Positions 38,298 to 43,318 of a stretch of DNA of 64,000 bases are shown here, in pieces. Made by a program: the position numbers and the translations under genes. The stretch lies in assembly GCF_000015205.1 (NCBI RefSeq), contig NC_008701.1, positions 809,436 to 873,435 of the forward strand. Direction: 5' to 3'. How positions within the stretch are numbered: position 1 is the first letter of the stretch; each line of letters opens with the position of its first letter. Source of the stretch: Pyrobaculum islandicum DSM 4184 (GTDB taxonomy: Archaea; Thermoproteota; Thermoprotei; Thermoproteales; Thermoproteaceae). The notes beneath the pieces were generated by a model. The model ran no database searches, was not told where the DNA came from, and saw only the letters and a list, made by a program, of their open reading frames with translations.

Positions 38298-38729
38298 TTA
38301 TTCGATACCCTTCGACTTTAGAAATTCTTCAAAAAGTCTCTTGACGCGTTCGGCAACCGGCCCTACACCTTCAACACCAATTTCACTAACACGAACTTTG
38401 TCGCCTATGATGACGGTGTTTGTCTCTTCAAGATATTTCACCATCCCTGGAAATATTTTTTCTGCTTGTTTTGCAAACTCCCGTAAGTCAATTCTCTTTT
38501 CTATGCTGTCTATATGGACAATATATCTATACATAATGAATACTCTTGTATACCTCTCCCCAGTCTTACTAATAGCATTTGCAAGGACTATATTAAGCTG
38601 GTTATCTACTGCATGTAGTATGCCTTTATATACCTCCCCGTTAGAAAGGACAACTTGTACCTCTCTACCTATGACGTTATTGAGCTCAGCTACAAACCTC
38701 TTGCTAGCTTCTGCTAAAGTTGTTGCCAT
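38298..38729 (-). CDS. smap3: Sm-like archaeal protein SmAP3
   Basis: 143 residues: N-terminal Sm fold (VIGREVQVVLSNGEVYKGIL, then AVDNQLNIVLANAI and the Sm2-like YRYIVHIDSI) plus a C-terminal extension of about 60 residues. This longer form matches SmAP3, described structurally from P. aerophilum. Binds oligo-U-type RNA or forms large rings. Downstream of rpo8 by about 30 bases on the same strand. Converges with the Lhr gene with only one base between. Confidence 0.93.
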   Translation of the reverse strand: MATTLAEASKRFVAELNNVIGREVQVVLSNGEVYKGILHAVDNQLNIVLANAISKTGERYTRVFIMYRYIVHIDSIEKRIDLREFAKQAEKIFPGMVKYLEETNTVIIGDKVRVSEIGVEGVGPVAERVKRLFEEFLKSKGIE

Positions 38730-38759: not shown

Positions 38760-39074
38760 TTATATGATGCCAATGTAAACTTTCTCACCAACTTTTAGCG
38801 GAAGTTCTTTCATAATATCTAGTTGCAGACCACCGATAGATATCCGCGTTATATTATTCCCCACGTAATATACTATGCCCCATGCATATACCTTGTACTT
38901 ATGTAATTCTTTATCCTTTTCTTGCTGTAATACTAATTTTACATTTTCACCTTTAGATAACTTTATGCCAAGTATGTTAAGTGGTAGCTCTATAGTTATA
39001 TCTACGTCGCCCTTCAGTTTTATAGTGTTTGGAAAGTCATTTGATATTTCTTCAACCTTTAGCAAAAATTCCAT
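38760..39074 (-). CDS. rpo8: RNA polymerase subunit Rpo8 (RpoG)
   Basis: 104 residues. The C-terminal block YKVYAWGIVYYVGNNITRIS, then GGLQLDIM, mirrors the Rpb8 signature (VMYGKVYRI...VSYGGLLMRL), and the end VGEKVYIGII fits the Rpb8 final strand. The N-terminal half is a beta-rich OB-like fold. Rpo8 is found in Crenarchaeota and Korarchaeota but not in most euryarchaea. TATA-like DNA lies upstream (minus strand ttttatactatat). Call made from motif match only. Confidence 0.82.
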   Translation of the reverse strand: MEFLLKVEEISNDFPNTIKLKGDVDITIELPLNILGIKLSKGENVKLVLQQEKDKELHKYKVYAWGIVYYVGNNITRISIGGLQLDIMKELPLKVGEKVYIGII

Positions 39075-39169
39075 AGCGCCACTTTTGTATATAGTATAAA
39101 AACGTTTATAGGCGGTGTTATGAAACTTTTAGTTAACTCTCTCTCAATAGAAATAGATATAACTACATA

Positions 39170-39180
39170 TTTTAAAATAT
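39170..39180 (+). promoter_or_regulatory. TATA box of TFB-like/secretion ATPase operon
   Basis: attttaaaata centred about 24 bases before the ATG; flanking 80 bases are AT-rich. Confidence 0.5.
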
Positions 39181-39198: not shown

Positions 39199-39666
39199 AT
39201 GATTTGTCCATATTGTAGATCTGACAAAATTATATTAAAAGACGGCGAATACATCTGTACAGAATGCGGAACAGTACTTGGTTTTGAAGTAGTCGCGCCC
39301 GTATCAAAGCAGAATATGTCAGTTATAAGAAGACGTACTATATTTCTAAGTCTTGAAAAAGAAAACAAAAAAACTATCAATATGAAATATAGCGATATAG
39401 TAAAATTTTATATTAATAAAATTTCTACAGAACTAGCTATAGAAAATATTAGAGAGGTAGCATGGGATCTATTTCAAAAGCTAGATAAAAGGGTCTATCA
39501 GGGCAAAAACCCTAGGGTGATAGCCGCCTCGGTTGTCTACCTAGCCGCAGAGGCTATGGGGGTTCAGATATACAAACAGACTATTGCAAAGATAGTAAAT
39601 ATAAGTAAATTTACTATTAGAGATACAGTTTCGAAATTAAGGAGACATGTTTCTACTACTCACTAA
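39199..39666 (+). CDS. Miniature TFIIB-like protein (zinc ribbon plus one cyclin fold)
   Basis: 155 residues, about half of a normal TFB. Zinc ribbon with C3, C6, C20, C23 (MICPYCRSDKIILKDGEY, then CTECGTVLGF). A short linker lacks an evident B-reader, and a single cyclin-like repeat follows (NPRVIAASVVYLAAEAMGVQ, ISKFTIRDTVSKLRRHV). Full TFB has two cyclin repeats. The stop overlaps the ATPase gene by 20 bases, so it is the first gene of this operon and may regulate it. AT-rich unlike neighbours. Confidence 0.85.
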   Translation: MICPYCRSDKIILKDGEYICTECGTVLGFEVVAPVSKQNMSVIRRRTIFLSLEKENKKTINMKYSDIVKFYINKISTELAIENIREVAWDLFQKLDKRVYQGKNPRVIAASVVYLAAEAMGVQIYKQTIAKIVNISKFTIRDTVSKLRRHVSTTH

Positions 39667-40675
39667 GATCCTAGAGTGTATAGCATGTAAATACTCTTGT
39701 CAAGAGAAGGGACTTTGTAGTTTTAATAAACATGAACTTTATTCAGTCATAGAACTGGCATCAAGAATCTTTTCAAGAGACATAGATGCTACTTTAGATC
39801 TCAGATATAAATTATTTGAGAAAATAGACAGAAAAATTGCCATAAGAGCCACGCTGGCCACTATTGGATTGTTAAAGATCGCCGAATTTGTAGAAAGCAA
39901 CGACGTAGAAGATATCCTTGTAATTCCCGGGCGTCCTATATACATAACAAAGCATGCTGAAAAACTTAGAACTTCTAAAATTGCTGATATTACACTAGTA
40001 AAGAATATGTTAAAACTGGCACATATGAAGGGGATAGAACTAACTACGGCAAACCCATCGATTAGATATGGCGTGAGATTTGGCCCAATTAGAATGAGAA
40101 TTTCGCTAGATCTGCCCCCAGTGGTTCCAAATCCACAAGCCTATCTTAGGATACATAAGTCTAAAATCACTATAGATAAACTATTAGATTCTAGGTTTAT
40201 AACTATTGAACAATTACGTGAAATTTATAGATTGATAAAAGAGGGGAAACATATTGTAATCACAGGGCCGCCCGGCTCTGGAAAAACAACATTTCTTGTG
40301 GCGTTAGATGATTTAATACCACCAAACCTACAGCGAGTCTACATAGACGAGGCTGATGAATTTGATGAAGATCCAAAAAAGAACCAAATAAAGATAAGAA
40401 ATGTAGACAAGATAAAAGAAGTATATGCATCACTAAATAGAAATATAGATGTCATATTTATCGGAGAGTTACAATATGAGAATCATTTTCACGCATTTAA
40501 AACTGCAACAGAGATAGGTATACAGACTTTAGCAACTATGCATTCTACATCTGTAAATGATGCAATAGAGAGACTAGAGAAATATGTTAAATTGAAAAAT
40601 ATTGCCATAATACAGCTTGCCAAACAACCTAAGGAGGCAGTCAAGAGAAAAGTCGTAGAAGTATATGTTAAATGA
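39647..40675 (+). CDS. VirB11/GspE-type secretion ATPase with N-terminal Cys cluster
   Basis: Drives assembly of type IV-like filaments or secretion machines. 342 residues: Walker A GPPGSGKTT at 207-215, Asp box YIDEADEF, Walker B-like VIFIGELQYENH and His box LATMHSTS (H299). The Walker B/Glu region is divergent from the usual DxIxVGExR. Unusual N-terminus with C11, C14, C18 and C24 (CIACKYSCQEKGLC), suggesting a metal or Fe-S site. Overlaps both operon neighbours. Confidence 0.87.
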   Translation: MFLLLTKILECIACKYSCQEKGLCSFNKHELYSVIELASRIFSRDIDATLDLRYKLFEKIDRKIAIRATLATIGLLKIAEFVESNDVEDILVIPGRPIYITKHAEKLRTSKIADITLVKNMLKLAHMKGIELTTANPSIRYGVRFGPIRMRISLDLPPVVPNPQAYLRIHKSKITIDKLLDSRFITIEQLREIYRLIKEGKHIVITGPPGSGKTTFLVALDDLIPPNLQRVYIDEADEFDEDPKKNQIKIRNVDKIKEVYASLNRNIDVIFIGELQYENHFHAFKTATEIGIQTLATMHSTSVNDAIERLEKYVKLKNIAIIQLAKQPKEAVKRKVVEVYVK

Positions 40676-41210
40676 GTATATAGCCTATAAGATCCAAGAG
40701 ATTCAGGAGAAAACGTATGTAAAAACTGTACTGATTTTATCATCTATGTCTACTATTAGTGTCATAACTAGTGGAATAGCCTTAGTAACAAACCCGTTGC
40801 TAAAATACTTAGCTATAGTAACTCTAACAATCGGCATAGCTATGTCATATATAACACTAAGACAAGGCGAAAACAAAATTAGGAAAGTTCTCATAAATTT
40901 TACAAGAGAGCCGTTAGTTCAGAGATATTTTGCAGTGCTTAAAGATCTGTATAGCCCGAGAAACTACTTTGACAAGCTGATTTCAGAGCCTCTTATTGAC
41001 GATATCGTAGTAAGAGCTGAAAGAAAAAACATAGAGGCATCAACGCCGCTTTTTAGAGCAAAATATAGAGCTTTAAAAAACAGAGCAAGGATTGTAATTT
41101 TTGCAACATCTTTTGCAGTTACAGTACCACATATAATGGTGACAAAAGACTTTATCTTTGGAATTATTATACTTATAGTTTTACTACTAGGAAAAAATAA
41201 GTTAAGTTAA
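40665..41210 (+). CDS. Membrane protein (possible half-length TadC-like platform)
   Basis: 181 residues. A paired hydrophobic region near residues 20-65, a charged central part (about 70-145), and one or two helices at the C-terminus (VIFATSFAVTVPHIMV, FIFGIIILIVLLLG). Overlaps the ATPase gene by 11 bases. The position and the helix-soluble-helix layout recall platform proteins of archaeal type IV filament systems, but at about 60% of the usual length; no sequence motif proves it. Confidence 0.72.
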   Translation: MLNEYIAYKIQEIQEKTYVKTVLILSSMSTISVITSGIALVTNPLLKYLAIVTLTIGIAMSYITLRQGENKIRKVLINFTREPLVQRYFAVLKDLYSPRNYFDKLISEPLIDDIVVRAERKNIEASTPLFRAKYRALKNRARIVIFATSFAVTVPHIMVTKDFIFGIIILIVLLLGKNKLS

Positions 41211-41214
41211 TGAC

Positions 41215-41360
41215 CCGCTAACGGCGGAGCCCGCAGTGTGGAGGCCTTGGACGTTATCCCTCGCAAAGGTTAATAGGTTGGCCGACATGGGGTGGTTCAC
41301 CTCGTTCCACAGCTTAGCGGCGGCGTATGCAAGACAGTGTAGCTTCCACTTTTAGACCTT
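41215..41360 (-). pseudogene. Fragment of a TnpB-like transposon protein
   Basis: On the minus strand the region 41289-41351 reads KWKLHCLAYAAAKLWNEVNH, a pattern like TnpB N-terminal parts (AYAAAKLWNEVN). An in-frame stop sits just before the first Lys, and the frame runs on into non-TnpB residues. No start codon or intact frame. Located directly after the AT-rich filament operon. Confidence 0.5.
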
Positions 41361-41653
41361 AGTGGGAGAAGGCGGATAGTCCGCACGGGGGCATCTTGAT
41401 AGGGCTGGATCTCCGCCAGAGTCATCTGAGCACCGTCTAGCGGATGCTACATACTGCATATAAACTGAGAAATAAACCTCAATGTACAATAACAAAGACT
41501 GTCAAAATATGTGAAAAATATGATAAAACTTGGTATATATATATGACAGACGTGACAGTTGTAAGTTATGCGTCCCCCACAGCGATTATACTAAAATTGC
41601 AAAAATATTACTCTAAATAGTTTATCTATACTAGGGGAAAAACTTGAAAAAAT
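41361..41653. other. Gene-poor stretch with small hairpin
   Basis: About 290 bases before the thermosome stop codon. I see a short hairpin GCGGA/TCCGC (41372-41384), then AT-rich DNA with a TATA-like run (ggtatatatatatgac near 41530) that is not followed by a credible gene. No gene found. Confidence 0.5.
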
Positions 41654-43318
41654 TTAGTCAAATTCCTTCTTTTCTTCCTTCTTCTCTTCCTCTCCCTTCT
41701 TCTCCTCTTTCTCCTTCTCTAATTTAGATGCCGCGATTATCTCGTCTATTCTCAAAATCATAGACGCGGCTTCAACAGCTACTTTAAGCGCGTTAAGCTT
41801 TACAGTCAACGGCTCAATTAAGCCGAGAGCCATCATGTCTACAACCTTGCCTTGATATACGTCAAGGCCGTATCTCCAACCGTCTGGCTGCTCGTGTTTG
41901 TGCGTCAACTCAGTCAGTATGTCTATGGGGTCTAGCCCGGCGTTTTCGGCGAGAGCCTTAGGTATGGCTTCAAGAGCTCTTGCAAACGCCTCTACAGCAT
42001 ATTGTTCTCTTCCGCCCACTTTTGTTGCAAAGGCTCTAACAGCTTTCGCAGCCTCTATCTCAGCCGCACCGCCCGCAGGAAGTATATAGGGCTCCTCAAC
42101 TACATCGGCAACAACAGATAGAGCATCGTCAAGATTACGCTCGGCTTCGTCGACAAGTCTCTCAAAGCCTCCACGTACTAGAATCGAGACTGCTCTTGGG
42201 TTTTTACATTGTTCTACAAACACCATCTTCTCGTCGCCTACACGTCTCTCCTCAACAAGTCCCGCAAAGCCGAGGTCGGCTTCTGTTAAGTCTTCAATAT
42301 TTGTCACTAGTCTCCCGCCTGTAGCTCTCACTAATTTTTCTATGTCACTACGTTTTACTCTCCTCACGGCTAATATGCCAGCTTTAGCTAAGTAGTACTG
42401 AGCAATGTCGTCAATGCCCTTTGTAGTGAATAACGCAGTTACGCCAAGCGATTTAAGCTTGTCGACATAGCCCTTGAGGATTTTCTCTTCCTCTTCTAAA
42501 AACGCTCTCATCTGTTGTGGATCGCTAATTCTAATTTCAGCATCGATTTCCGGCTTCTCTACCTCCAATGGCGCATCAAGTAACGCTATTTTGGCATTTA
42601 TAACACGCTTAGGCATTGCTGCGTGAACGACTTCTTTATCAACTATTACACCATAAACAAGTTGTGTATCTAGGAGAGATGCGCCATGCTTCTTAACTAT
42701 CTGGATGTTGTCAAGATCGACGTAGTATTTCCCATTTCTCTCCTCTGCCACTTGTAACACCGCTTTTACAGCTAAGTCAGCGAAATACTCCTTTACAGTT
42801 TCAGAAATCTTCCCACCCATTGATGTCATAGCTATTTTTTTCAGCGTATCTACATCTGTCCTACTTACAGGAACGGCAACTTTACGTAGATGCTCTGTGG
42901 CCACATCTAGCGCCTTCTTAAAACCGCTTACTATTACAGTTGGATGGATGTTTTTCTCAAGTAGTTTCTCGGCTTCCTCAAGTAAAGCGCCGGCTAGCAC
43001 AACCGCTGTAGTAGTACCGTCGCCAGCCTCCTCTTCCTGAGATTTAGAAATTTCTACTAGTAACTTAGCTATGGGGTGTTGAACATCCATTTCATCAAGA
43101 ATAGTGGCACCATCATTTGTTATTGTTATATCGCCGAGAGAGTCAATAAGCATTTTGTCCATGCCCTTTGGCCCTAGTGTCGTCCTCATAACTTCGGCTA
43201 TAGCTCTTGCAATCATTATATTTAGCCTAAGCGCCTCTTTGCCAAAAGCCCTCTGCGTACCTTCCTTTAATACAAGCACTGGCACTCCTCCTATTTGAGT
43301 CAATACAGCTTGACTCAT
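41654..43318 (-). CDS. Thermosome subunit (group II chaperonin)
   Basis: ATP-driven folding chamber of archaea. 554 residues with [23 protein letters not shown]-binding [20 protein letters not shown], and the C-terminal charged tail [17 protein letters not shown]. Normal length. TATA about 25 bases before the ATG. Whether alpha or beta cannot be told. Confidence 0.97.

Follow-up and report, generated by a model that had tools for sequence, protein, structure and literature searches.

A TFB-headed secretion ATPase operon of Pyrobaculum islandicum as a probable reduced descendant of an ancient archaeal locus with a possible link to DNA exchange

The three overlapping genes for a miniature TFB, a secretion ATPase and a small membrane protein in Pyrobaculum islandicum DSM 4184, contained in the 64,000-nucleotide stretch of DNA analyzed here (the window), are best explained overall as a reduced module of motor and activator, belonging to a DNA-exchange pilus that descends from an ancient archaeal locus, a reading to which we assign a probability of about 0.5. 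The evolutionary part, that the trio is a reduced, vertically inherited Thermoproteaceae version of such a locus, is very likely on comparative sequence evidence, and the ancestral order would have been Rpb8, B-reader-less TFB, type IV pilus (T4P)/Tad-type ATPase, one or more TadC-like platform proteins, pilin-like protein, CedD-type HerA and thermosome. The functional part, a role of the trio itself in DNA exchange, is plausible at slightly less than even odds.

All three genes lie on the plus strand: the mini-TFB gene at 39199–39666 (155 aa; Pfam and profile matches), the ATPase gene, of the VirB11/GspE/CpaF type, at 39647–40675 (342 aa; Pfam, alignment and tree), and the membrane protein gene at 40665–41210 (181 aa; hydropathy and AF2 model). 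The open reading frame coordinates agree with the overlaps of 20 and 11 bases reported in the first-pass annotation, and the arrangement is beyond chance, since those Thermoproteaceae that have retained the genes show the same reading frames, gene order and overlaps. The operon occupies a slot marked by three minus-strand neighbors recognized by synteny, namely, the divergent rpoG, encoding RpoG/Rpb8 (38760–39074; Pfam RNA_pol_RpbG, 5.4e-4, below the curated cutoff), the outer marker encoding an LSm protein (38298–38729; Pfam Lsm_C, 1.8e-24) and, on the right-hand side, the gene of a thermosome subunit with 80 to 96% identity among Thermoproteales (41654–43318). As noticed earlier, the trio is AT-rich, with 30 to 36% GC versus 41 to 50% in most of the flanks; rpoG beside it has 33% GC as well in P. 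islandicum, and the trio has 43 to 53% GC in other Pyrobaculum species. A GC-rich stretch (41211–41653) separates the operon from the thermosome gene, and a 71%-identical partial copy of it is found at 1488697–1488839 of the same genome (one contig of 1,826,402 bp), so that it is perhaps a mobile-element remnant. An RNA gene within 41211–41470 was considered and rejected, as this part has no Rfam match and folds no better than shuffled sequences.

Upstream of the TFB gene, on the plus strand, the intergenic alignment contains a conserved element, AACTCTCTC..ATATAA (39135–39162), recognizable in 10 Pyrobaculum genomes, which could be an autoregulation site. It is followed by a TATA-like sequence, TTTTAAAA (39170–39177), located 22 to 29 nt 5' of the TFB ATG and aligned with an AT-rich block in relatives, the position of which would be compatible with a leaderless operon promoter. 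The exact spaced pattern occurs at the trio locus in 5 of the 6 genomes searched, with a few scattered matches elsewhere; for none of the latter was conservation between species demonstrated, and a wider regulon based on this motif was not adopted.

The first gene carries a TFIIB zinc ribbon (Pfam Zn_Ribbon_TF, 1.5e-7) and one TFIIB repeat (Pfam TFIIB, 1.7e-8), in line with the first-pass annotation. Using separate profiles of the zinc ribbon, B-reader, repeat 1 and repeat 2 built from 20 canonical TFBs, we found that the retained cyclin repeat is repeat 2 (25.3 bits versus 12.6 for repeat 1) and that, of the B-reader/B-linker and two cyclin repeats that characterize canonical TFBs, the B-reader and repeat 1 are absent. 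Repeat 2 was likewise the best-scoring repeat, and the B-reader missing, in all Pyrobaculum and Thermoproteus homologues tested. The resulting architecture, an N-terminal C4 zinc ribbon, repeat 2 and a recognition-helix-like C terminus, is consistent with the AF2 model (pLDDT, 79), for which Foldseek returned TFIIB/TFB, and with the profile match to Pyrococcus woesei TFB in the PDB (9e-13). Elsewhere in the same genome, two 57-aa open frames (G000:C1:125622 and 1724219) match the TFB zinc ribbon only (1.3e-12 and 1.0e-9) and are possible stand-alone zinc-ribbon proteins, and an orphan 169-aa protein (L255:1617-2126; G000, about 87.1 to 87.6 kb) gives a weak TFIIB-repeat match (1.5e-4).

The second protein belongs to the T2SSE family (Pfam, 1.5e-13), with profile matches to archaeal GspE (2oap), FlaI and CpaF. 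At 342 aa it is shortened at both termini relative to the 500 to 700 aa of its relatives, at the end of a series of decreasing length (711, 585, 520 and 343 aa). The extra four-Cys N terminus and the diverged Walker B motif described previously were both right, the arginine that follows the GE-hydrophobic motif being replaced by glutamine; the catalytic glutamate is nevertheless kept, and Walker A (GPPGSGKT), E238, E274 (in the GE of Walker B), H299, R309 and R334 are conserved across 12 homologues. The CX2CX3CX5C N terminus is present in all seven Pyrobaculum ATPases examined, the N-terminal part of the Vulcanisaeta ATPases has three or four Cys, and each of five Thermoproteus ATPases (L040-L044/L031-L038 comparison) is devoid of any Cys; a metal or cluster bound by this N terminus, if any, would thus have been lost in Thermoproteus. 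The third gene does encode a short membrane protein with four predicted transmembrane (TM) helices, arranged by hydropathy in a TadC-like topology (two TM helices, cytosolic helices, two TM helices; AF2 pLDDT, 76.8). Searches for a Pfam family and for a PDB fold gave no significant match, and a relationship to the TadC-like proteins encoded in the full loci described below, which also received no hhalign profile support, was not retained.

The first-pass annotation considered an operon of this kind, headed by a TFB-like gene, to be undescribed, and in this respect it has to be corrected, as the sections of Makarova, Koonin and Albers (2016; PMC4858521) that deal with T4P subclade 4D contain exactly such an operon. 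In those sections, 4D comprises the ATPase arCOG05558, the membrane protein arCOG05557/13890 and a one-cyclin TFIIB, arCOG05559, adjoins RPB8, is without pilins and has a function given as unknown and possibly transcription-related; a further TFIIB homologue, arCOG01981, is said there to occur in many T4P loci, and T4P motors are argued to use shared pilins in trans (PMC4858521). The trio shares with 4D the genera, an ATPase shortened by loss of the C-terminal domain and bearing a Cys N terminus, a membrane partner (four TM helices here, four to five there), the one-cyclin TFIIB, the adjacent RPB8 and the lack of pilins, and from genus, gene order and domain content we infer that it is the arCOG05558/05557/05559 operon. 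Our results differ from that account in three respects: (i) the TFIIB, called Pyrobaculum-Thermoproteus specific there, is here traced to a clade of two-repeat, B-reader-less TFBs; (ii) the same TFB-ATPase linkage is also found in Vulcanisaeta, other Thermoprotei, Thaumarchaeota and Asgard archaea, and the TFB leads back to a locus that includes a CedD-type HerA; and (iii) the Cys cluster occurs in Pyrobaculum, in part in Vulcanisaeta and in none of the five Thermoproteus sequences. What is new relative to those sections is the ancient TFB clade, the distinct ATPase clade, the strict linkage, part of which may already be visible in the 2016 locus tables, the full loci with HerA and the position of the best Sulfolobus match of this HerA, beside TFB3 and the thermosome.

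The order LSm, Rpb8, TFB, ATPase, membrane protein and thermosome is common to Pyrobaculum, Thermoproteus and the Vulcanisaeta group, the last of which has a TFB of about 275 aa with two repeats, an ATPase of about 520 aa and a membrane protein of about 255 aa. The slot with Rpb8, LSm and thermosome is also found in other Thermoprotei and in Nezhaarchaeota, and in Asgard archaea with Rpb8 only. The whole module is absent, as a clean loss, from one Pyrobaculum metagenome-assembled genome (MAG) and from the Thermoproteales genera g4 and g7, and in a sister genus (G011) the slot holds only a 226-aa TFB. A relative of this solo-TFB genus has two slot-type TFBs, in frames of 227 and 196 aa (G013:C24 and C30), possibly through duplication. 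In the draft Vulcanisaeta genomes L182, L184 and L185, the ATPase and TFB frames are split, apparently through sequencing errors, because the thermosome frame is split too.

Fuller versions of the locus were found in two other Thermoprotei lineages, in which the slot begins with a TFB of 305 to 326 aa, four short membrane or secreted-type genes on the opposite strand and two coiled-coil proteins, continues with a 681- to 688-aa ATPase, two TadC-like proteins and a pilin-like protein of 80 to 90 aa with one hydrophobic helix, and ends with a HerA-family ATPase, followed by a kinase and the thermosome. When named genomes were scanned with the ATPase alignment and the neighbors annotated by profiles, the TFB-ATPase pair, usually with a small pilin-like gene and HerA, was found in Thermoprotei MAGs, Nezhaarchaeota, Bathyarchaeota, Thaumarchaeota/Nitrososphaeria, Thorarchaeota, Lokiarchaeota and Odinarchaeota; these wider loci carry TadC-like proteins, a small pilin-like protein and/or HerA, and Rpb8 precedes the locus in many Asgard genomes. 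Where the sequence available 5' of the slot ATPase extended for at least 4.5 kb, a TFB was present in 60 of 60 loci, HerA in 41 of 60 and Rpb8 in 33 of 60, counts that include related, nonindependent loci, some of which served to build the profiles. As controls, 18 other secretion ATPases were examined, most of them from genomes that also supplied slot loci and one being the Sulfolobus ATPase at the ups position; none has a TFB within about 8 kb.

The slot TFBs and the slot ATPases each group together in trees that contain several long branches. Of the 58 TFBs analyzed, the 22 canonical and paralogous ones fall on the other side of a split (support, 100/100) from the 36 that occupy the slot, with the mini-TFB of the window inside the Thermoproteales part of the slot clade, and the B-reader is found in 0 of 68 slot TFBs versus 20 of 20 canonical TFBs. 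The 36 slot ATPases likewise cluster (96/92), and UpsE and all other pilus motors sampled fall outside this cluster; both trees follow organism lineages. The Ups motor UpsE/UpsF of Sulfolobales resembles the slot system in pairing a T4P ATPase with a TadC protein and in having a TFB paralogue, TFB3, as regulator in trans, but the ATPase encoded at the ups position (G363, about 99.6 kb) belongs to a different ATPase clade and has no TFB nearby.

The same slot can be followed into Sulfolobaceae. In Saccharolobus solfataricus, where TFB3 was located by the published tfb3 primer, the order is LSm, Rpb8, psmB, hisS, a small gene, TFB3, thermosome and HerA, and the thermosome adjoins TFB3 in 16 of 18 Sulfolobaceae loci examined, the flanks being short enough that the two misses do not prove absence. 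The best match of the full-locus HerA alignment in S. solfataricus is the thermosome-adjacent HerA (1.7e-73; next match, 2.7e-24), and the equivalent gene ranks first as well in a second Sulfolobaceae genome and in one genome that has the order Rpb8, HerA, thermosome. By gene order, and not by the SiRe_1715 sequence, we identify this HerA as SSO0283/Saci_0667, equivalent to SiRe_1715, that is, CedD. SSO0283/Saci_0667 is listed as UV induced, about 5-fold in S. solfataricus (PMC2246294), hisS corresponds to SiRe_1719 (PMC10470591), and SiRe_1715 was named CedD and reported to be essential for DNA import in Saccharolobus (mLife 2025; PMC11868833), in a paper whose text contains neither "synteny" nor "thermosome". 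CedD is thus like the full-locus HerA in being its best Sulfolobaceae match in the same slot, but differs in being missing from the Thermoproteales searched (Pyrobaculum, Thermoproteus and the Vulcanisaeta group), where no match was better than 6e-25 and no CedD-type HerA lies in or near the locus, Pyrobaculum itself having no CedD ortholog. In family f13 (L074, L075 and L078), a protein of ~115 to 130 aa followed by a HerA of ~310 to 355 aa lies between Rpb8 and thermosome, a pair that may be CedD split into its N-terminal domain and ATPase.

TFB3 itself activates ups and ced (PMC6934391, PMC10470591 and PMC9905601) and helps TFB1 (PMC7289017). Sulfolobus TFB3 (Sso0280/Saci_0665) is, like the mini-TFB, a short TFB with a zinc ribbon and no B-reader, placed between the Rpb8 side of the slot and the thermosome, the CedD-type HerA lying on the far side of the latter; it differs in that it is reported to be without the BRE-reading helix-turn-helix, whereas the mini-TFB retains repeat 2. 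The Thermoproteus tenax TFB3, like that of Sulfolobus, is without a cyclin fold according to the genome paper (PMC3189178). We did not accept TFB3 as an ortholog of the slot TFBs proven by sequence, since the best tree groups it with canonical TFBs and the mini-TFB cannot be aligned to its C-terminal part; a union of slot TFBs and TFB3 was not rejected (AU P value, 0.39). TFB3 may either descend from the slot TFB or be a canonical paralogue that moved into its place. An ATPase-like gene 3' of a TFB3-like gene in another family proved to be a weak match on inspection and was set aside.

What the comparison shows is that the TFB and the ATPase each belong to a clade of their own and are strictly linked, that the slot is shared and that the locus shrank stepwise and was lost differentially. 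The evolutionary part of our reading is very likely, and the trio is, as judged from gene order and trees, vertically inherited and not horizontally acquired. The simplest history would be one ancestral block with differential loss, in which Sulfolobaceae have a TFB, namely, TFB3, in the slot and kept CedD, f13 kept CedD only, Thermoproteaceae kept TFB, ATPase and membrane protein, and some lineages kept nothing. More tentatively, a single locus predating the split of Asgard and TACK archaea may have encoded a DNA-import pilus and, beside Rpb8, its own B-reader-less TFB, with CedD, TFB3 and the Pyrobaculum trio as surviving pieces and the Asgard and Thaumarchaeota loci as fuller versions. These comparisons hint at joint inheritance of a dedicated transcription factor and a machine for DNA exchange, from Asgard archaea to hyperthermophiles.

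As to mechanism, the ancestral locus would have built a DNA-import pilus and made its own initiation factor as an on-switch. The Pyrobaculum ATPase and membrane protein would then be a minimal motor and platform, with filament subunits or DNA-transfer parts supplied from elsewhere, e.g., by the Ted system. The zinc ribbon of the mini-TFB would dock on RNA polymerase and its repeat 2 would read DNA upstream of the TATA box; since the B-reader and the TBP-clamping repeat 1 are absent, the protein should not replace TFB1 or initiate alone and, by analogy with what is reported for TFB3, would therefore most likely be a helper of TFB1 that stimulates its own operon and genes for DNA exchange, in much the way TFB3 activates ups and ced in Sulfolobus. 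The filament or DNA-transfer system proposed from the initial look at the sequence thus survives in part: a TFB does head an ATPase/membrane protein operon, and relatives with a CedD-type HerA make a link to DNA transfer plausible (PMC11868833), but the operon contains no pilin-like gene. No class III-signal pilin was found in it, and a simple scan of the window's reading frames yielded just two weak candidates, of which the membrane protein is one. Counting against a DNA-exchange role are also the lack of HerA in the Pyrobaculum locus and of a CedD ortholog in the genome, the lack of detectable homology between the Pyrobaculum membrane protein and the TadC-like proteins of full loci, and the probable identity of one module-less Thermoproteales genus with Caldivirga, for which Ted is reported (PMC9905601).

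Two alternatives, both of which we regard as unlikely, deserve consideration. In one, the ATPase and membrane protein assemble nothing and form a membrane-anchored switch controlling the mini-TFB, a kind of transcription-linked signaling that would suit the pilin-less locus, the miniaturized ATPase and platform and the transcription-related pathway suggested in the 4D sections of Makarova et al. (PMC4858521), and in which the Cys cluster invariant in Pyrobaculum could sense redox or metal. That cluster, however, is lost in Thermoproteus, the motor residues of the ATPase are conserved, and full outgroup loci pair the ATPase with TadC-like and pilin-like genes and often HerA, so that the ancestral role was probably assembly. 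In the other, the trio is the motor of an ordinary adhesion or other T4P whose pilins are encoded elsewhere, the TFB being merely a regulator and DNA transfer uninvolved. Membership in the T4P ATPase family and the sharing of pilins in trans between motors, argued in those sections (PMC4858521), would fit such a pilus; the separate clade of slot ATPases, distinct from the sampled pilus motors including UpsE, and the CedD-type HerA DNA pump of full loci count against it.

That the trio is a decaying relic with little function left, as the progressive ATPase shrinkage and the clean losses could suggest, is very unlikely: the Pyrobaculum genomes in which it is retained have intact frames, overlaps and promoter element are conserved, and the dN/dS values of 0.16, 0.09 and 0.17 (TFB, ATPase and membrane protein) in the closest pair indicate purifying selection. 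Horizontal acquisition of the cassette, raised as a possibility in the first-pass annotation and favored by AT richness relative to the flanks, is scarcely credible, given a slot and a gene order that are preserved in three genera and in more distant relatives, TFB and ATPase trees that track organism lineages and an AT bias that extends to rpoG and is not found in sister species.

To conclude, if the trio is such a reduced module of a DNA-exchange pilus, a pilus-like system that was left with "function unknown" in 2016 would gain a testable function. This reading would also suggest why a TFB paralogue controls the DNA-exchange genes of Sulfolobus, in that regulator, motor and DNA pump would formerly have been neighbors, and it predicts that Thaumarchaeota and Asgard archaea, in which gene exchange is little known, may possess machinery for DNA import with a transcription factor of its own.
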